A DNA stretch of 64,000 nucleotides from positions 1-64,000 of the forward strand of contig DELY01000015.1 in assembly GCA_002354655.1 (NCBI GenBank), read 5' to 3'. Below the pieces are notes generated by a model, which ran no database searches, was not told where the DNA came from, and saw only the letters and a list, made by a program, of their open reading frames with translations. Each line of letters starts with the position of its first letter. Within the stretch, counting starts at the first letter, position 1. The position numbers and the translations under genes were made by a program. Shown one piece after another: positions 1,017 through 26,514 of this stretch. Source of the stretch: Pseudomonas sp. UBA2684. GTDB lineage: Bacteria > Pseudomonadota > Gammaproteobacteria > Pseudomonadales > Pseudomonadaceae.

Positions 1017-1244
1017 CTATTGAGGCTTGGCATCCTTACGTGGACGGCCAGGGCCTCTCTTCACTACTGGTGCCCAGATTCCACGGATGTGGGCAGCTCC
1101 AGCAAAGACTTGATCAACGTATGTTGGTTCGCCTTCGTACCCTACGGGGTCAGCCAGCCTGATTGGCGGGTGGGCCGCATAGTGCGCCATTAGCCATGCA
1201 TCGTGTGCTTGAAGCACTTCTTCTATTGTCTGTGTACTGCTCAT
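1017..1244 (-). CDS. Small protein with AT-hook-like basic tail, 75 aa
   Basis: This is the last gene of the island operon. The ATG at 1244 overlaps the stop of the gene before it in an ATGA, and GGAG lies seven bases upstream, so the longer frame to 1325 is not the likely start. The body (MSSTQTIEEVLQAHDAWLMA) is predicted helical. The C-terminus reads KRGPGRPRKDAKPQ, in which GRPRK resembles an AT-hook minor-groove binding motif. No family is recognised. A DNA- or RNA-binding accessory role would fit its neighbours, but that is inference from one short motif. Confidence 0.65.
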   Translation of the reverse strand: MSSTQTIEEVLQAHDAWLMAHYAAHPPIRLADPVGYEGEPTYVDQVFAGAAHIRGIWAPVVKRGPGRPRKDAKPQ

Positions 1245-1564
1245 GCTACAGCTCCGTGGTATTGCTGACTTACGTGCACGATTAGTTTGGAAATCATTGC
1301 ACTGCCAAATTTTGCTTCTCGACACCGCGATGTAACATCAGCAACTAGTTGAGCAAGGGTTTCGTATGTACTGCCATGTGGCAAGGGGAGGCCCTTGGCC
1401 TCTGTAGTGGCCTTGCTCACGCTTGTCTTGTGGGTGGCTTCATTCGATGCTTGGGGCCTGACTGCAAGGGCCTGTAGGGCTGTTGTAGCTGCCTGTTGCA
1501 TGGCGTCAGAGCCGTGGCGTTGCAACAGCAAAAGACGTGTGTAGTCTGCGGTTTGAGTTGTCAT
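1241..1564 (-). CDS. Hypothetical protein, 107 aa
   Basis: I do not recognise this gene. The ATG at 1564 overlaps the stop of the 437-residue protein gene as ATGA, and its own stop overlaps the next ATG in the same way, so it is translationally coupled on both sides. The product is Ala/Thr/Gln-rich in its first half (LLLLQRHGSDAMQQAATTA). Its more structured C-terminal half ends in ISKLIVHVSQQYHGAVA. There are no cysteines in pairs, unlike several neighbours, and no membrane segment or signal peptide. Confidence 0.6.
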   Translation of the reverse strand: MTTQTADYTRLLLLQRHGSDAMQQAATTALQALAVRPQASNEATHKTSVSKATTEAKGLPLPHGSTYETLAQLVADVTSRCREAKFGSAMISKLIVHVSQQYHGAVA

Positions 1565-2874
1565 ATCGTTCTCCGTGAGTATGTTTGATTTTTAGGTTGG
1601 GAAGCCAAGAAGCGTGTTAGTACATTTACAGCCGGTTCAACTTCTGGCTGGGTAGACTTAACAGTGAACAAGATGTGTTCAACATCATCTTCTACATCCT
1701 GTTCAATATCATCTAGCCAATGTGGTATGCGTTCCGCATGGTGGATAACTGGGGACAGTTGCTTTTTCTCGCTCCTGGTGAAATTACACTGAAGAAGCAA
1801 GTTTTCCTCTTCAAGAATCGGGACACTTTCAGGAGCAATAGGCAGCACTAGGCTTTCAGAGGTGGCGGGTGTTGTTGAATACGTATTCAAAACAACTAAG
1901 AAGTCTTCGACACGACCACCATGCAACAAATCAAACTGTGCTTGGCGTAGCGGTGCCAGTGGGGCGAGTGCTTCCCTGTATGCAGATTCAGAACCACCAA
2001 ACTTTGGACGTGACCAATCTAGGGCTAGGATGTCCCCCAAGATTAGCGGCATAACCTCTAACCAAGGTTCGATTATTTGCTGAAGCTCTGGGCGGTGTTG
2101 CGACAGTCGCTTTAGTTCAGATAGAAATACTTCATTTGAATTGATGCCGCTGGATGGCAAGTATCCGCTACTCTTCCCGCTGATTTCAGACTTCAACTTT
2201 GAAAGTGCGGCGGTGGACATATCATCTAGTACGGCTCGTGCTGGCACACGCGCATCACCACACTGCAATAACCAATCGAGAGAGGCTTGACGCTTGGCGG
2301 GTTGCAACTTGAGCTTAACGGCGATTGTTGCTGTAAAGTCTTCCCCAAGGTATTCAATGATCTTGGCAACTACAGAGCTTTTCGAGGCTTCAGCATCTAC
2401 CCACCACTTTGCAGATAAATCTAATCGGCTTATTTTGTGGCCAGCACCCTGTACGAATGAATTGCTATGCTTGGAATTTAAGTCGCGGTAACTCACGCAT
2501 AGATTTTCGGCATACATGGTGCCTACATAGAAAGTATTTTTTGTGGGAAAAATGTGGCATAGATTGAACTGGTCGTATTCGCCATATTCATTACTTGCGA
2601 GTGAGTATTTATAAAGCTTGTGGAGTTTTTCTAGTTCACTGAGAGTCTTTGGCAGCACCTGCACTGTTCCACTTCTGCGGCAGGAGTCAGCAAGATAAAA
2701 GACAAATGCGCTGGTACTAAATCTGTACTTTCGTTGCTTGTCGAGTCTATTGGAGCGAGCACGCTGCCACGCCTTCTTGTGGGCTTCAGAGCAATATTCA
2801 GCTTTCTTGCTTTTATACGCGAACGGGGAAAGGCATTGCTTACACAGTTTGGTTTTCTGGGTTAGGTCTTGCAT
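1561..2874 (-). CDS. 437-aa protein with N-terminal zinc ribbon
   Basis: This is the largest protein of the island operon. Residues about 11-40 form a ribbon: CKQC, a spacer of about a dozen residues, then YCSEAHKKAWQRAR, giving a CxxC...C-x2-H pattern followed by basic residues. The remaining 400 residues match nothing I know; they are mixed helix/strand with an acidic stretch near the C-terminus (DDIEQDVEDDVEH). Translation probably starts at the ATG at 2874, behind AAGGAATGATAT. The first codons overlap the end of the preceding small ribbon gene by 35 bases. The same ribbon pattern recurs in three small neighbours, suggesting a shared nucleic-acid target. Confidence 0.75.
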   Translation of the reverse strand: MQDLTQKTKLCKQCLSPFAYKSKKAEYCSEAHKKAWQRARSNRLDKQRKYRFSTSAFVFYLADSCRRSGTVQVLPKTLSELEKLHKLYKYSLASNEYGEYDQFNLCHIFPTKNTFYVGTMYAENLCVSYRDLNSKHSNSFVQGAGHKISRLDLSAKWWVDAEASKSSVVAKIIEYLGEDFTATIAVKLKLQPAKRQASLDWLLQCGDARVPARAVLDDMSTAALSKLKSEISGKSSGYLPSSGINSNEVFLSELKRLSQHRPELQQIIEPWLEVMPLILGDILALDWSRPKFGGSESAYREALAPLAPLRQAQFDLLHGGRVEDFLVVLNTYSTTPATSESLVLPIAPESVPILEEENLLLQCNFTRSEKKQLSPVIHHAERIPHWLDDIEQDVEDDVEHILFTVKSTQPEVEPAVNVLTRFLASQPKNQTYSRRTI

Positions 2875-3001
2875 ATATCATTCCTTCTGGATCATGAATT
2901 GAGTTGTATTTTCTGCGGCACTGGCCACAGCAGAATGCTTGAGGGCGATGTACAACAATCTGCTTGTGGCATTGGCGGCATGTGCAAATTATGGATTTCA
3001 T
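2840..3001 (-). CDS. Small zinc-ribbon protein, 53 aa
   Basis: Starting at the internal ATG at 3001, the product reads MKSIICTCRQCHKQ, then FCCGQCRRKYNS. The CxxC and CxxC pairs are separated by about a dozen residues and the second is followed by basic residues. A longer frame up to 3073 would overlap the upstream ribbon gene and is less likely. The stop at 2840 lies inside the following gene. It is almost entirely the zinc ribbon, so it is probably a nucleic-acid or protein adaptor. No named family is recognised. Confidence 0.65.
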   Translation of the reverse strand: MKSIICTCRQCHKQIVVHRPQAFCCGQCRRKYNSIHDPEGMIYARPNPENQTV

Positions 3002-3027
3002 TGTTGTGTCCTCTGATAGAGCGGCAG

Positions 3028-3213
3028 TTACGCCGCTTTTTGCTGGTGCTCGACACGGCAAAATAGCGAGCAAAATGGAACTTGTCCTTTCGTCAGCTCG
3101 CCACAGTTTTTACACTCGCTCAAGGTGTCGTCATGCTCTTGGCGGGCATGCCAACTTAGAATTCCTGGGCGAGTGATAAACATGTACTCTTTGTTAGCGT
3201 GCTGCCTGCTCAT
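3028..3213 (-). CDS. Small zinc-ribbon protein, 61 aa
   Basis: The ATG at 3213 overlaps the stop of the 161-residue gene as ATGA. The second half carries CKNCGELTKGQVPFCSLFCR: CxxC, ten residues, CxxxC, then basic residues, the same plan as in the adjacent ribbon genes. The first 30 residues (MSRQHANKEYMFITRPGILS) have no recognisable motif. Its size suggests a one-domain adaptor. The family is not named here. Confidence 0.65.
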   Translation of the reverse strand: MSRQHANKEYMFITRPGILSWHARQEHDDTLSECKNCGELTKGQVPFCSLFCRVEHQQKAA

Positions 3214-3695
3214 ACAAACTCACCAAGTGCTTTTTTGGCTGCAGCAGTAGCAGCTTCTACTAACTTGGTCCGTGCTTCAGCGGCCTTTTTCGCTTCAGCA
3301 CGTTCGGCCATTGCAACCGACTCTTCTACAAGTAGTTGTAAGTGGGTGTCATAACGGGCTTTCAGTTCTGCTTTGTACGCTGCTGTCACTTGTTCGGTGA
3401 TCACAGCAATATCCGCATCTTGGATATGTTGCGGTTTGACAAGGTAACATCTATAGAACTGCGTCCCGTTGCGTTGTAGAAACTCAACAGGCAACTTTCC
3501 GTGGCGTGTATAACCTTCTGCAAGTTTGGCTGTGTAAGCATCTAGGAACTGGCTCGGGTAATCTGCAAATAGGCTTTCTACAGCCCCGACTACATTCCCG
3601 AAAGTGTCCGCGTTCTGGTATCTGTGAACGGCTTGACTAATCAGTAGGTCGAGGTCAGCTTGTACATAGTTGTGCGTTATCTTGTGGGCGCTCAT
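3210..3695 (-). CDS. Hypothetical protein with Ala/Glu/Lys-rich helical tail, 161 aa
   Basis: I do not recognise the family. The ATG at 3695 overlaps the stop of the first ribbon gene as ATGA. The N-terminal 100 residues look globular. The last 50 (MAERAEAKKAAEARTKLVEA...) form a long charged helix that may be a coiled coil, ending LGEFV. There are no cysteine pairs, so this is one of three operon products without the ribbon. It may be a partner or scaffold for the ribbon proteins; that is inferred only from coupling. Confidence 0.65.
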   Translation of the reverse strand: MSAHKITHNYVQADLDLLISQAVHRYQNADTFGNVVGAVESLFADYPSQFLDAYTAKLAEGYTRHGKLPVEFLQRNGTQFYRCYLVKPQHIQDADIAVITEQVTAAYKAELKARYDTHLQLLVEESVAMAERAEAKKAAEARTKLVEAATAAAKKALGEFV

Positions 3696-3919
3696 TTAGT
3701 TTTCTCCTGTGTGTTTGTTGGTGTTTGTTGTAGTTCGGCTCTCAACTTCTTCCTGTAGCGGCAAAGCGTTTGACGACACGAGGCCGAGCATGTGTATTTG
3801 TTGCGGTAGACGAAACTAAATCGAGCGCCGCAAACCGGGCACTCCTTAGCGTGATTAAGCTTCAGTTTGTGCGTGGTGAAATCAAGTAGGTGATCTAGCG
3901 ATGTATCAGGTGTAGGCAT
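3692..3919 (-). CDS. Small zinc-ribbon protein, first gene of the island operon, 75 aa
   Basis: The start at 3919 is set by a strong AAGGAGG eight bases upstream; the frame continues upstream but without a ribosome site. The product has an N-terminal helix (MPTPDTSLDHLLDFTTHKLK), then CPVCGARFSF..YTCSASCRQTLCRYRKKLR: CxxC, a spacer of about 13 residues, CxxxC, and a strongly basic stretch. The mixture of ribbon and arginine-rich helix fits nucleic-acid binding. It lies about 90 bases downstream of the terminator of the structured RNA, on the same strand, so it may be transcribed by read-through from the RNA promoter or by its own promoter. Confidence 0.75.
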   Translation of the reverse strand: MPTPDTSLDHLLDFTTHKLKLNHAKECPVCGARFSFVYRNKYTCSASCRQTLCRYRKKLRAELQQTPTNTQEKTK

Positions 3920-3979
3920 GGCACAGCCTCCTTTAAGTAAGGTGTAATAAGATTTTGGTTTGGTGTTACGTGACTTGGA

Positions 3980-3994
3980 GTGACGGAACGTCAC
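3980..3994. promoter_or_regulatory. Perfect dyad, candidate operator of the zinc-ribbon operon
   Basis: GTGACG and CGTCAC flank a GAA spacer, giving a 15-bp dyad between the RNA terminator and the first ribbon gene. Another GTGAC half-site lies close by (3969-3975). A short GTGT-G-ACAC dyad also sits at 4388-4396, just upstream of the RNA promoter -35 box, so one regulator might see both. No regulator is assigned. Confidence 0.45.
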
Positions 3995-4007
3995 GGAAGA
4001 GCCAGCA

Positions 4008-4349
4008 GGTAAAAGAAAGGCCCGACAGGGCCTTAATAAAGCAGGAAACCACCACAACCCATTCGCCACAAATTTATTGAATGGTGGTTTCCGTACACGG
4101 AGGAATTAGTGATCGTCTTTTGCTGCGGACGATCAAACGCAAAACCACAGTAAGTAGCAATGTCGATAGAAGACCTTACGGAGGTTCAGCCTAGTCGGTG
4201 GTTACCAGCCCACGGCCAAGCTAGCAGGCGTTAAGCGCCGGGGTGCAGGACGCACCTTCTGATTCGGTAGAAACCCATCAGCGGGGTTGAAGCTGCGGCC
4301 CAAGAGAAAAACCGCCCTACCTGACGAGAGAATAAAGTCTTCTCTAGTC
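4008..4349 (-). ncRNA. Candidate large structured RNA, about 340 nt
   Basis: A consensus promoter at 4356-4384 predicts transcription from near 4349 leftwards, and an intrinsic terminator at 4017-4034 closes the unit. No plausible frame fills the space. The RNA is dense with stems: 4327-4332 with 4340-4345; a three-way junction (4266-4270 with 4317-4321, enclosing 4272-4276 with 4284-4288 and 4295-4298 with 4312-4315); 4242-4246 with 4252-4256; 4227-4230 with 4236-4239; 4173-4176 with 4182-4185; 4111-4117 with 4128-4134; and an 11-bp stem 4044-4054 with 4082-4092 that can partly trade with 4059-4064 / 4079-4084. It is not a tRNA, tmRNA, 6S or RNase P RNA by motifs I know. It may be a stand-alone RNA or a long attenuating leader of the operon starting at 3919. 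Confidence 0.65.
4017..4034 (-). terminator. Intrinsic terminator of the structured RNA
   Basis: AAGGCCC and GGGCCTT form a seven-base stem with a four-base loop. On the minus strand it is followed by TTTCTTTT. It lies about 100 bases before the first zinc-ribbon gene, so it either ends the RNA or acts as an attenuator. Confidence 0.75.
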
Positions 4350-4355
4350 TCTACT

Positions 4356-4384
4356 ATTGTAAGAGATGATCTTGATTTTGTCAA
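4356..4384 (-). promoter_or_regulatory. Consensus sigma-70 promoter for the structured RNA
   Basis: On the minus strand TTGACA (4384-4379) and TACAAT (4361-4356) are separated by exactly 17 bp. The -35 is a perfect consensus match and the -10 differs by one base. It is among the best promoter matches visible in the window and points away from the coiled-coil protein gene on the other strand. Confidence 0.8.
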
Positions 4385-4487
4385 GCAGTGTGACACATAA
4401 ATCTATCACTTGAATGAAATAGATTTTGCCTCGCTGATGTGTAAGATGTACGATCATCGCTCAACCAAATCTTACGAGGTGTGCAGC

Positions 4488-4832
4488 ATGGCTAGTCGCG
4501 AATGGTCGTTGGAAGAGATGGAGCATGTGCTAGATCAGTACAAGGTTTATGGCAAAGAGAACATTGCCGGCTTCCTCAATGAGTACAAAAAAGCATGGCC
4601 GGAACTCAAGCAACCAGCACGGGCAACCTTCGTAAGTTGGCTGGGGAAGTCTGGAACCAGCAACGCCCCAGCTGAAAAGCAGCAATCGATTTCACAGGTT
4701 TTGGCAGAGGCCAAGGGCAAGCTGAATGCTCGCAAGGCTCAGTTGGAAAAGGAGGTTGCTGGTCTGCAACAGAAGATCGATGCGGTTAAGGCTGAGATGG
4801 AAAACATCGATCAGGCACTAACCAAACTCTGA
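4488..4832 (+). CDS. Small protein with C-terminal coiled coil, 114 aa
   Basis: The start at 4488 follows GAGGTG; the frame is open upstream to 4410 but without a ribosome site. The N-terminal half (MASREWSLEEMEHVLDQY...) looks like a compact helical domain. From about residue 65, AEAKGKLNARKAQLEKEVAG and the rest to the C-terminus have heptad spacing typical of a coiled coil, so it probably oligomerises. I recognise no family. The leader holds a seven-base inverted repeat (4441-4447 with 4469-4475) directly before the ribosome site, which could modulate translation. It is divergent from the structured RNA and shares its upstream region. Confidence 0.7.
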   Translation: MASREWSLEEMEHVLDQYKVYGKENIAGFLNEYKKAWPELKQPARATFVSWLGKSGTSNAPAEKQQSISQVLAEAKGKLNARKAQLEKEVAGLQQKIDAVKAEMENIDQALTKL

Positions 4833-4853
4833 CCTGTGCGTTGATGACCTAAG

Positions 4854-4876
4854 GCCCGCCAATGAGCGGGCTTTTT
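4854..4876 (+). terminator. Intrinsic terminator of the coiled-coil gene
   Basis: GCCCGC (4854-4859) and GCGGGC (4866-4871) form a stem with a six-base loop followed by five T residues, 20 bases after the stop codon at 4832. It is the last island feature before the FKBP remnant. Confidence 0.8.
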
Positions 4877-4899
4877 CATTGGGGGCCTACATATTGTTG

Positions 4900-4915
4900 T
4901 CACAAACAAAAAAGC
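4900..4915. other. Right boundary of the mobile island (attachment site region)
   Basis: Left of about 4912 the sequence is AT-rich and island-like. From 4913 the frame reads directly into the conserved middle of an FKBP isomerase (SWDQGLMGM...). The crossover therefore lies within or next to this stretch. The exact core cannot be fixed without the left junction, which is outside the window. Confidence 0.55.
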
Positions 4916-5077
4916 TGGGATCAAGGCCTGATGGGCATGAAAGTCGGCGGCAAGCGCAAGCTCTTCGTACCCGCCCACCTCGCCTACGGCGACAGGCAGA
5001 TCGGCGAGCACATCAAAGCAAACTCGAACCTGCTCTTCGAGATCGAGTTGCTCGAAGTGCTGACCCGAGACGACTGA
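4913..5077 (+). pseudogene. FKBP-type prolyl isomerase, 3' half only, split by the island
   Basis: The frame reads SWDQGLMGMKVGGKRKLFV, then the PAHLAYGDRQIG loop and a C-terminus ending LLEVLTRDD. This is the second half of a short cytoplasmic FKBP of about 112 residues, with the WDxG..GM core and the AYG loop of the active site present. The first half, including the early strands and the FDSS motif, is missing. The frame runs upstream into terminator sequence and has no start with a ribosome site. Most likely the island inserted into the gene and the 5' half lies left of the window. Confidence 0.8.
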
Positions 5078-5119
5078 AGCGCCCTCATCGATCCCACGCC
5101 CGGATAGACCGCCAACGCC

Positions 5120-6520
5120 TTACGCCTGCATCGCCCAGCCATGCACATTCATCGCCGCCTGACGCAGGGCTTCGGAACGCGTTGGGTGCGGGTGGCAGAT
5201 CAGCGCGATGTCTTCGGCCGAAGCGCTGAACTCCAGAGCCACGCAGTATTCGCCGATCAGTTCGCCGGCGCTGGGGCCAATGATGTGCACGCCGAGTATC
5301 TGGTCGCTGCGCTCATCGGCCAGCACTTTGACGAAGCCTTCGGCCTCGTGGTTGATCTTCGCCCGGCTGTTGGCAGTGAAGGGAAACTTGCCCACTTTAT
5401 AGGCGCGGCCCTCGGCTTTTAGCTGCTCTTCGGTTTTGCCGACGCTCGCCACTTCCGGCTTGGTGTAGATGACGCTGGGAATCGCCCCGTAGTTGACCTC
5501 GGCGGCATGCCCGGCGATGCGTTCGATGCAGGCGATGGCTTCGTCTTCGGCCTTGTGCGCGAGCATCGGCCCGGAGGTCACGTCACCGATAATCCAGATG
5601 CCCGGTACGCCGCTGCGGTGCTGCTGGTTTTCCAGCATGCCGCGCTGGTCCGCGGTGATGCCGACGGTTTCCAGGCCGAGGCCTGCGGTATAGGCGCGGC
5701 GGCCGATGGCAACCAGCACGTAATCGGCCTGCAATTGCTCGGCCGCGCCGCCGGCGGCGGGCTGCAGGCTAAGCGTAACGCCCTTGGCGTCGGCGCTGGC
5801 CGCAGTGACCTTGGTCGCCAGCTTGAAGCGCATGCCCTGCTTGGCCAGGGTGCGTTGCAGGGTCTTGGCGGTTTCGTCGTCGAGGCCCGGGCAGATGCGA
5901 TCCAGGTACTCCACCACCGTCACTTGGCTGCCGAGGCGGCGCCACACCGAGCCCAACTCCAGACCGATCACTCCGGCGCCGATCACCACCAGATGCTTGG
6001 GCACCTCAGGCAAGGACAGCGCGCCGGTGGAGTCGAGAATGCGCTGGTTGTCGATGCTCACCCCAAGCAGCGGCGTCGGCTCGGAGCCGCTGGCGATGAC
6101 GATGTCCTTGGCCTGCAACTGCGTCTGGCTGCCGTCGGCATGACTCACGCTGACCTTGCCCACGCCATTCAGACGGCCCCAGCCCTTGATCCATTCGACT
6201 TTATTCTTGCGAAACAAAAACTCGATGCCCTTGGTCAGGGCCGTAACGCTCTCATCCTTCTGCTTCATCATCTGCGCCAGGTTGAGCGTCGGCGTGACCT
6301 CGATACCGAGGTTGTTGAGCTCACCGCTGGTCGCCGCCTGATACAGCTCCGAGGCATGCAGCAGCGCCTTCGAAGGCATGCAGCCGACATTCAGGCAGGT
6401 GCCGCCGAGGGTTTCCCGGCCCTCGATGCAGGCCACTTTCAAGCCCAGTTGACCGGCACGGATGGCGGCGTTGTAGCCGCCAGGGCCACCACCGATGATT
6501 ACAACGTCATAGCTGCTCAT
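5120..6520 (-). CDS. lpdA: Dihydrolipoyl dehydrogenase
   Basis: This flavoprotein, E3 of 2-oxoacid dehydrogenase complexes or the glycine cleavage system, reoxidises dihydrolipoamide with NAD. It is full length (466 aa). It has an FAD-binding GGGPGG at residues 10-15, the redox disulfide in CLNVGC (Cys42, Cys47), a second nucleotide fold with VIGAGVIGLELGS near 183, IGDVTSGPMLAHKA for FAD, and the C-terminal catalytic pair His445/Glu450 in HPHPTRSE. No E1 or E2 gene is adjacent, which suits the stand-alone lpd3-type paralogues of Pseudomonas. Its start lies 18 bases past the stop of the MFS gene, so the two are probably co-transcribed. Confidence 0.95.
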   Translation of the reverse strand: MSSYDVVIIGGGPGGYNAAIRAGQLGLKVACIEGRETLGGTCLNVGCMPSKALLHASELYQAATSGELNNLGIEVTPTLNLAQMMKQKDESVTALTKGIEFLFRKNKVEWIKGWGRLNGVGKVSVSHADGSQTQLQAKDIVIASGSEPTPLLGVSIDNQRILDSTGALSLPEVPKHLVVIGAGVIGLELGSVWRRLGSQVTVVEYLDRICPGLDDETAKTLQRTLAKQGMRFKLATKVTAASADAKGVTLSLQPAAGGAAEQLQADYVLVAIGRRAYTAGLGLETVGITADQRGMLENQQHRSGVPGIWIIGDVTSGPMLAHKAEDEAIACIERIAGHAAEVNYGAIPSVIYTKPEVASVGKTEEQLKAEGRAYKVGKFPFTANSRAKINHEAEGFVKVLADERSDQILGVHIIGPSAGELIGEYCVALEFSASAEDIALICHPHPTRSEALRQAAMNVHGWAMQA

Positions 6521-24126: not shown

Positions 24127-24194
24127 ACCAACCACTTCCGCTGATCCGTTGCGGCTTGCCCAAGCCGCCGAAGCGTGCAGAATAGTGCACGAAA

Positions 24195-24244
24195 CGAGGA
24201 CGACCTCGACACTCATCGAGTGACCCATCAGGGGGACGGCCCCC
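24195..24244 (+). ncRNA. Guanidine-II riboswitch (mini-ykkC)
   Basis: Two hairpins with ACGR loops: CGAGG-ACGA-CCTCG (24195-24208) and GGGGG-ACGG-CCCCC (24231-24244), 22 bases apart, the defining pair of the class. The second ends 28 bases before the gdx start, close enough to control ribosome access. Guanidinium binding to both loops turns on the exporter. Confidence 0.9.
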
Positions 24245-24639: not shown

Positions 24640-26514
24640 TTAGCGCATATCGCCGCGCAACGCCGCCACCTGCGTCTGCAACAGTTGGCGATCGACCGCC
24701 TCCGGGTTCAGCGGCGTACCAGCCACCAGCTTGATCCGCGACCACAGGCGCTTGAACACGCCCTTGTGTGGATCACGGCTGAAGAAGCTGCCCCACAGCC
24801 CCTGCAAAGCCATGGGAATCACCGGCACCGGGTTTTCCTGAAGGATGCGCTCGATGCCATTCTTGAACTCATTGATCTCACCATCGCTGGTCAATTTGCC
24901 TTCCGGGAAGATGCACACCAGTTCGCCGTTACGCAGGTACTCGGCGATTTTCTTGAACGCCGCGTCGTAGATCAGCAGGTCTTCGTTGCGCCCCGCAATC
25001 GGCACGGTGCCGGCGGTGCGGAAGATGAAATTGAGCACCGGCAGGTTGTAGATTTTGTAGTACATGACAAAACGCACCGGCCGCCGTACCGCGCCGCCGA
25101 TCAGCAGCGCATCGACGAACGACACGTGGTTACACACCAGCACCGCCGGGCCTTCATCGGGAATGGCGTCCAGGCCTTTATGCTCGACCCGGTACATGGA
25201 GTGGCCGAGCAGCCAGATCAGGAAGCGCATGCTGAATTCGGGGACGATCTTGAAGATGTAGCTGTTAACCGCGATGTTCATCAGCGAGATGACCAAAAAC
25301 AGCTGTGGGATCGACAGCTCGGCGACGCTGAGAAACAGGATCGAGACAATCGCCGACACCACCATGAACAGCGCATTGAGGATGTTGTTGGCGGCAATCA
25401 CCCGCGCCCGCTCATGCTCCGCGGTGCGCGACTGAATCAAGGCGTACAGCGGCACGATATAAAAGCCGCCGAACAGGCCGATACCGAGGATCGAACCGAG
25501 AATCCACCAGGCCTGAGCATGACCGAGCACCGCCAGCCAGTCGTGTGCCTGCGCGGCCTGCGGGAAACCACCGGAATGCCACCAGAGCAATACGCCGAAC
25601 AGGGTCAGGCCAATCGAGCCGAACGGCACCAGACCGATCTCCACCTTGTGCCCGCTCATGCGCTCGCAGAGCATCGAGCCCAGGGCGATGCCCACCGAGA
25701 ATACGGTGAGGATCAGCGTCACCACGCTCTCGTCGCCATACAGCCATTCCTTGGCGTAGGCCGGGATCTGCGTCAGGTACACCGCGCCGAGAAACCAGAA
25801 CCAGGAGTTGCCGACCAGCGAGCGCGACACCGACGGGCGCTGGCCCAGGCCGAGTTTCATGATCTGCCAGGACTGGCGAAAGATATTCCAGTCCAGGTGC
25901 AGCGCCGGCAAGGCCGCCGCCGCACTGGGGATCTTGCAGCTGGCCAGGTAGCCGAGCACGGCGACCACGACCACCGAACTGGCGACGATACTGGCGTACT
26001 CGCTGCTGGCCATCATGATTCCGGCGCCGATGGTGCCGGCCAGGATCGCCAGAAACGTGCCCATCTCGACCAAGGCGTTGCCACCGACCAGCTCCTCTTC
26101 CTGCAGGTGCTGCGGCAGGATCGAGTACTTCACCGGGCCGAATAGCGCCGACTGGGTGCCCATGCTGAACAGCACCGCCAGCATCAAGGGCAGGTTATCC
26201 AACAACACCCCGGCGGCGCCGACGAGCATGATCAGGATCTCGGCGAACTTGATCTTGCGGATCAACCAATCCTTGGCGAACTTCTCGCCAAACTGCCCGC
26301 CAAGCGCGGAGAACAGAAAGAACGGCAGGATGAATAACAGCGCGCAGAGGTTGACCAACAGATCGCGGTCGGCGCTGACGGTCAATTTGAACAGGATGGC
26401 GAGGATCAGCGACTGCTTGAAGATGTTGTCGTTGAACGCCCCGAGCAGCTGAGTGATGAAAAACGGCAGGAAACGCTGTTTACCGAGCAAGGCGAATTGC
26501 GAGTGTTGGGTCAT
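24640..26514 (-). CDS. MFS transporter-acyltransferase fusion (LplT-PlsC type lysophospholipid recycling)
   Basis: A 624-residue protein from the ATG at 26514. Residues about 1-400 form a major-facilitator domain (FLPFFITQLLGAFNDNIFKQ opens it, as in LplT lysophospholipid flippases). Residues about 425-600 form a 1-acylglycerol-phosphate acyltransferase domain with NHVSFVD (HX4D), FPEGKLT and the VPVIPMALQG block. The pair suggests inward flipping and reacylation of lysophospholipid at the inner membrane. The third (acyl-ACP synthetase) module of some homologues is absent. It is convergent with gdx. Confidence 0.92.
   Translation of the reverse strand: MTQHSQFALLGKQRFLPFFITQLLGAFNDNIFKQSLILAILFKLTVSADRDLLVNLCALLFILPFFLFSALGGQFGEKFAKDWLIRKIKFAEILIMLVGAAGVLLDNLPLMLAVLFSMGTQSALFGPVKYSILPQHLQEEELVGGNALVEMGTFLAILAGTIGAGIMMASSEYASIVASSVVVVAVLGYLASCKIPSAAAALPALHLDWNIFRQSWQIMKLGLGQRPSVSRSLVGNSWFWFLGAVYLTQIPAYAKEWLYGDESVVTLILTVFSVGIALGSMLCERMSGHKVEIGLVPFGSIGLTLFGVLLWWHSGGFPQAAQAHDWLAVLGHAQAWWILGSILGIGLFGGFYIVPLYALIQSRTAEHERARVIAANNILNALFMVVSAIVSILFLSVAELSIPQLFLVISLMNIAVNSYIFKIVPEFSMRFLIWLLGHSMYRVEHKGLDAIPDEGPAVLVCNHVSFVDALLIGGAVRRPVRFVMYYKIYNLPVLNFIFRTAGTVPIAGRNEDLLIYDAAFKKIAEYLRNGELVCIFPEGKLTSDGEINEFKNGIERILQENPVPVIPMALQGLWGSFFSRDPHKGVFKRLWSRIKLVAGTPLNPEAVDRQLLQTQVAALRGDMR

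Follow-up and report, generated by a model that had tools for sequence, protein, structure and literature searches.

A terminated, structured leader RNA as a candidate gate for the first operon of a family of Pseudomonas integrative islands

In P4-type satellites, which are mobile elements, the early operon is restrained by termination in the leader/CI RNA. The IsrK RNA of prophage Gifsy-1 (RF01394) has its own promoter and terminator, and some of its transcripts read through into mRNA, according to PMC4825925. Type III toxin-antitoxin loci are organized with a single promoter, the ToxI RNA, a Rho-independent terminator, and a gene (PMC5086642), and ToxI is a pseudoknot (PMC5772629). The alpha-r14, NfeR1, and cuckoo RNAs, as presented in PMC10746234, are trans-acting alphaproteobacterial RNAs with an identical ninefold word and with hairpins of variable stem that expose anti-Shine-Dalgarno words; in NfeR1, which folds into three hairpins, the stems vary and CCUCCUCCC is left unpaired.

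Here we describe a candidate leader RNA in the window, i.e. the whole 64,000-nucleotide stretch of Pseudomonas sp. UBA2684 DNA that was analyzed (contig DELY01000015.1); its features are listed in Table 1. Its likeness to the P4-type leader/CI RNA would be one of arrangement only, with an early operon restrained by leader termination. As with IsrK, it is an RNA of a horizontally acquired island with a promoter, a terminator, and, as proposed here, partial read-through, but it has no Rfam match, and a counterpart of the trans-activation step of IsrK would be hypothetical here. The promoter–RNA–terminator–gene order is that of the type III toxin-antitoxin loci, and a pseudoknot, which ToxI is, is possible in the island leaders; however, no tandem or direct repeats were found in 4000–4400 at the settings used, so that none precede the window's terminator, and the gene downstream codes for a zinc ribbon with no match to a toxin family (a ToxN/CptN/TenpN-type gene was sought after the terminator). 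Taken as a set, the island leaders resemble the alpha-r14, NfeR1, and cuckoo RNAs in having variable-stem hairpins that expose anti-Shine-Dalgarno-like words, but they are operon leaders, their words are looser, and a hairpin-AAUU[CU] module is present in addition.

Table 1. Features of the candidate leader and the operon that follows it (positions in the window).
Feature	Coordinates	Strand	Basis or remarks
Sigma-70-type promoter, TTGACA-17-TACAAT	4356..4384	-	11/12 consensus matches
Predicted transcription start	~4349	-	Inferred from promoter spacing
Candidate structured leader RNA, ~340 nt	4008..4349	-	Fold z -4.33; Rfam negative; no Shine-Dalgarno-led ORF start
5' hairpin GAC-AGAGAA...UUCUCU-GUC	4323..4349	-	Minimum free energy (MFE) helices
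8-bp hairpin UGAUCGUC[CGCAGCAAAA]GACGAUCA, recurrent module preceding AAUU[CU]	4110..4135	-	MFE and recurrence
Motif CUAAUUCCUCC, directly 3' of the 8-bp hairpin	4099..4109	-	CTAATTC and YCCTYC enrichment among leaders
11-bp hairpin GGAAACCACCA...UGGUGGUUUCC, 5' of the terminator	4044..4092	-	MFE
Intrinsic terminator AAGGCCC-UGUC-GGGCCUU, 7-bp stem, then UCUUUU tail	4017..4034	-	
First operon gene, 75-aa zinc-ribbon protein, Shine-Dalgarno AAAGGAGG	3692..3919	-	
Rest of operon	1017..3695	-	161-aa protein, 61-aa and ~53-aa ribbons, 437-aa, 107-aa, and 75-aa proteins

An initial annotation had described a sigma-70 promoter with exact 17-bp spacing and an intrinsic terminator enclosing a structured non-coding RNA. 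Both ends were borne out, as was the observation as a whole, and its interpretation is supported in part; the strand, missing from that annotation, is the minus strand. The terminator lies 97 nt from the 75-aa zinc-ribbon gene. The promoter is the single promoter-like site in 3000–6000, where 50 shuffles have a mean of 1.5, and the site by itself is not significant; its weight therefore comes solely from comparison with related islands. The description as non-coding holds in that there are no Shine-Dalgarno-led ORF starts within the leader by our start rule (ATG with at least 4/6, or another start with at least 5/6, AGGAGG matches, and at least eight codons), but two open frames run across it. 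One is a 64-aa GTG ORF (4396–4202) that starts before the promoter; the other is the reading frame of the 75-aa ribbon gene, which is open upstream to a GTG at 4069 within the leader (125 aa). ATG 3919 is taken as the start of the 75-aa gene because of the 6/6 Shine-Dalgarno match there, and a start of the longer protein may be used instead.

The predicted fold of 4349–4008 is -121.9 kcal/mol, compared with -102.6 (sd 4.45) in 100 dinucleotide shuffles, and with the terminator removed the z value is -3.21 (60 shuffles) or -3.94 (40 shuffles). The MFE fold contains one 11-bp, two 8-bp, two 7-bp, and two 6-bp helices; the initial claim of at least seven perfect stems is generous, as one 8-bp and one 7-bp helix each hold several G-U pairs. 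The 11-bp stem noted at the outset is present; a three-way junction was not identified in the MFE fold, the one fold examined. Judged by eye, 5' hairpins like that of the window are found in several other leaders.

The leader matches no known class in the Rfam check that the initial annotation had proposed, with no match at the gathering threshold among 4227 families, and none on the minus strand of 3600–5000 at E ≤ 10. Three other leaders (L056, L035, and L089) gave sub-threshold matches only, the lowest E being 0.053 for RF02278, a toxic small RNA (20.6 bits vs 50). By blastn the window's leader has no DNA homologue in plasmid, phage, and E. coli collections; in its own genome it matches nothing besides itself, a draw of 249 genomes from the genus gave no DNA homologue in the other 248, and it does not align with any of 22 other stretches (best match 15 nt, E 0.63). 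Matches to the 437-aa protein of the operon were found in 31 genomes (its own included) out of 398 from the genus, in one of 89 genera (343 genomes), and also in two Pseudomonas plasmids and in P. sagittaria (L056), these genome draws overlapping heavily and not being independent. No member of its family was found in phages with a single query (from L035) or confirmed in viral contigs by four pattern-seeded, non-exhaustive scans, and the 161-aa protein has no homologue in plasmids or viral contigs. Among the matches listed in the open-licence literature, there is no description of such an RNA or island.

We compared 35 stretches, comprising about 20 kb around each of 31 other loci matched by the 437-aa protein, the Pseudomonas relatives L003, L004, and L056, and the first 9000 bases of the window. 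Inspection by eye first showed, in ten of these, an operon preceded by a strong promoter, non-coding sequence, and a terminator. A scan written after those ten leaders were viewed called for a promoter of at least 10/12, a terminator 80–430 nt downstream, and a Shine-Dalgarno-led ORF with a ribbon motif (C-x2-C...C-x2-4-C) within 170 nt. The unit of promoter, 150–440 nt leader, terminator, and zinc-ribbon gene is present in 18 of the 35 stretches, window included: it recurs before the zinc-ribbon operons of related islands. Per promoter match, the scan succeeds at 21/53 on the sense strand, at 0/13 on the antisense strand, and at 0/1 on both strands of 9001–64000 of the window. The 17 stretches in which it fails are L003, L004, L043, L045, L046, L051, L053, L054, L086–L088, L090, and L092–L096; two of them, L046 (promoter 9/12) and L053 (11/12, but lacking an ORF that fits the ribbon rule), were included manually to form a set of 20 leaders. 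The gap from terminator to start codon is 48–113 nt, and 17 of the 18 loci have no promoter of at least 9/12 there, the sole exception being L049 (9/12). With no second promoter detected, the operon is, as far as can be read from the DNA, transcribed through the terminator. One genome (G256) holds both L044 and L046, with leaders 92% identical, and like leaders can thus coexist. We also note an 11/12 promoter and leader before a ribbon gene, with no terminator detected, in P. aeruginosa plasmid pHPA0698-2 (L003:9587–9965), and, in L056 (4228–5075), another promoter-like site (12/12) that precedes the leader promoter by about 850 nt.

Without their terminators, all 20 leader bodies have z below 0 and 15 have z below -2 (mean -2.75, range -0.24 to -5.56), with the exceptions being L036, L037, L038, L041, and L091. 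In 15 of 20 leaders the transcribed strand folds more stably than the opposite one (mean z -2.79 vs -1.36 over the set, Wilcoxon p 8e-4), which favors RNA over DNA structure, as expected with G-U pairs. Most of the 20 leaders cannot be aligned with the window's leader, and no common fold was obtained by MAFFT for it and the four nearest by protein (ten pairs, nine broken in at least one leader, one compensatory). Five pairs of leaders within the set are related, and compensatory pairs are seen in four of them (L048/L049, 5/26; L042/L047, 11/57; L038/L052, 11/45; L035/L037, 6/38), with none broken, which means little as pairs were folded on the alignments and then counted, favoring unbroken pairs; L044/L046 have 0/48 and are too alike to judge. 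The covariation looked for is thus present in four of the five alignable pairs, but in relatives and not in the window's own stems, which fall outside a stem-by-stem comparison because no homologue aligns with the window's leader along its length.

Two features recur among the leaders. The first is a hairpin of at least 6 bp, with free stem sequence, located 0–3 nt before AAUU[CU]. It is found at 9 of 29 sites, which are spread over 8 of the 20 leaders, the window's among them (4135–4099, the 8-bp hairpin joined to CUAAUUCCUCC); the corresponding frequencies are 6.3% over all leader positions (P 5e-5) and 1.6% at shuffled-leader sites; with loops of up to 17 nt allowed, the counts are 10/30 AAUU[CU] sites in leaders and 68/1919 outside. 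The stems are selected for pairing, such that the informative part is the variety of pairs and not their completeness. CTAATTC is present in 6 of 20 leaders, where 0.4 occurrences are expected. The 4135–4110 hairpin of the window may be assigned to the module only by analogy with the other leaders. In several leaders the loop can pair with sequence upstream, across a small hairpin: UCGACAG/CUGUCGA in L035 and L037, AUCAGC/GCUGAU in L036, GACCG/CGGUC in L038, CAUCA/UGAUG in L047, GUAGC/GCUAC in L089, and, by eye, GUGGAA/UUCCAC in L056, often leaving an A-rich linker (e.g. GAA) 5' of the stem. The window's counterpart, UUGCU (4160–4156) with AGCAA, has p 0.29 and is not significant alone. An unconstrained test for such pairing was weak (Fisher P 0.014, 12 sites); a second test gave a combined P of 3e-4 (12 sites in 11 leaders, four sites with p > 0.3), with a geometry fixed after the leaders were viewed and with L035 and L037 related. 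It is possible to likely that the module is part of a pseudoknot. The second feature is YCCUYC, an anti-Shine-Dalgarno-like word that occurs 28 times in the 20 leaders where 10.3 (sd 2.9) are expected, its reverse complement occurring three times where 3.0 are expected; the motif words were picked and counted in one and the same set of 20, which includes the five related pairs. Its unpaired probability is 0.74, above the values for other pyrimidine hexamers (0.59, p 0.007) and for its occurrences in shuffled leaders (0.56, p 3e-4).

We consider it somewhat more probable than an even chance that the terminated leader RNA acts as a gate ahead of the first operon in a family of Pseudomonas integrative islands. 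RNA polymerase would start at the near-consensus promoter and make a folded RNA of 150–440 nt (340 nt here), transcription would mostly stop at the intrinsic terminator, and the operon would be expressed by read-through. The short RNA would then be abundant and the long mRNA rarer, in the manner of IsrK and of type III toxin-antitoxin loci. The order of promoter, RNA, terminator, and gene, with no second promoter, is what would make the RNA a gate. We infer that the transcripts exist in those proportions and that read-through is regulated, with some signal lifting termination; the exposed words would pair with Shine-Dalgarno regions or bind a protein. Upstream complementarity to the terminator arm equals that of shuffles (20 leaders, Fisher P 0.49; window p 0.81), and a competing antiterminator helix was rejected as a candidate for this reason. 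As no helix was found to compete with the terminator, any regulation of read-through would more likely involve a factor that acts on RNA polymerase or on the RNA than a simple refolding switch. The idea of a long attenuator, raised initially, keeps the terminator between the only detected promoter and the operon but loses its antiterminator helix. A classical riboswitch or attenuator with a terminator/antiterminator switch would also have a long 5' leader and a terminator ahead of its operon, but the shuffle-level complementarity, the failure of the window's leader to align with any of the 22 stretches, unlike ligand aptamers, and the lack of an Rfam match at threshold make it very unlikely.

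The leaders could alternatively be trans-acting sRNAs in which exposed YCCUYC loops block the Shine-Dalgarno sequences of host or island mRNAs and read-through is incidental, which we regard as unlikely in spite of several features in its favor. These are the enrichment, strand bias, and accessibility of YCCUYC given above; in addition, 11 of the 28 cores are in MFE hairpin loops, which hold 15% of leader bases, and the likeness to NfeR1, with CCUCCUCCC unpaired and stems that vary (PMC10746234), points the same way. However, the lack of another operon promoter in 17 of 18 loci makes the RNA an operon leader as well, the window's leader has a single YCCUYC site (UCCUCC) with an unpaired probability of 0.47, and leader duplexes show but a slight preference for first-gene start regions over coding windows (-20.4 vs -19.3 kcal/mol). 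Antisense pairing of each leader with its own gene was rejected, with no sign of specificity (own mean -20.0 vs -20.4 kcal/mol, mean rank 10 of 18); this speaks against an antisense RNA devoted to the first gene, and not against general Shine-Dalgarno pairing. Binding of the hairpin-AAUU[CU] module or the pyrimidine loops by the zinc ribbons or the nuclease, for autoregulation (antitermination) or as a ribonucleoprotein, is quite unlikely in our estimation: the RNA adjoins a ribbon gene in 18 loci, though the scan demanded a ribbon ORF, and a conserved single-stranded word beside a variable stem resembles a protein site, but none of the three small ribbons reaches a Pfam cut-off, and the 75- and 61-aa ribbons have weak PHROG matches only, most of unknown function. 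A mobile island with a resolvase might also harbor a DNA-level element (an origin, recombination, or packaging site) with inverted repeats mimicking RNA stems; the fixed strand of promoter and terminator, the strand bias of the words, and the fold bias towards the transcribed strand leave this extremely improbable.

That the arrangement recurs in related islands while the sequences are mostly unrelated suggests a control RNA of an undescribed kind. We put forward tentatively, as a broader reading that is itself rather doubtful, that these are a new class of island regulatory RNA, fast-evolving pseudoknotted multi-hairpin leaders that work with their own zinc-ribbon proteins, the class being defined by architecture and the hairpin-AAUU[CU] module and not by sequence, and forming an antitermination or ribonucleoprotein system that would control undescribed satellite-like elements of Pseudomonas. 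Classes with such fast sequence turnover escape sequence-based RNA discovery, and conserved gene order exposes a candidate. If the leader does gate the operon, it offers an entry point to the switch-on of a little-known island family, and a test case for RNA control via exposed anti-Shine-Dalgarno words or small zinc-ribbon proteins.

The operon is followed by a serine resolvase gene on the same strand, which is cut by the contig end; the window begins at the first base of its contig, and the left end of the island lies outside. It is a loose statement that four of seven operon genes code for one small zinc ribbon: related CxxC...CxxxC/H motifs are found in the 75-, 61-, and ~53-aa ORFs and at the N-terminus of the 437-aa protein, but these proteins differ from one another. 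Six proteins gave no match with PADLOC, and a PDB profile search gave none. Residues H107, N124, N133, and H136 are among those kept in 13 aligned relatives of the 437-aa protein, and the L042 relative has matches to profiles of HNH endonuclease (E 1e-4) and of endonuclease VII (E 0.002); the window's own protein has a weak HNH match (E 0.0072) covering the ribbon only. We therefore describe it as a ribbon protein of an HNH/endonuclease VII-like family, with the nuclease reading made by family.

Some related islands may be phage satellites. Tape-measure-like genes coding for 733–761 aa are present in L035, L036, L038, and L042, the last three by the look of the translation and the first (L035:6217–8496, minus strand) with matches to PF20155, TIGR02675, and PHROG tail families; no other tail genes were noticed among the ORFs looked at in those islands, and no tape-measure-like gene was seen in L047, L048, L056, or the visible part of the window's island. 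Divergent from the leader promoter, on the other strand, is a gene for a 114-aa coiled-coil-like protein (4488–4832), with no counterpart in the 22 stretches compared. At the right edge of the island, 4862–5077 codes for part of an FKBP domain, its C-terminal half (positions 46–94 of the 94 in PF00254), and the island seems to have inserted into an FKBP gene or replaced its 5' part. Elsewhere in the window, a Guanidine-II riboswitch (24192–24244) and Bcj11 (RF02835, a Burkholderia RNA; 25741–25859) are both above their gathering scores.
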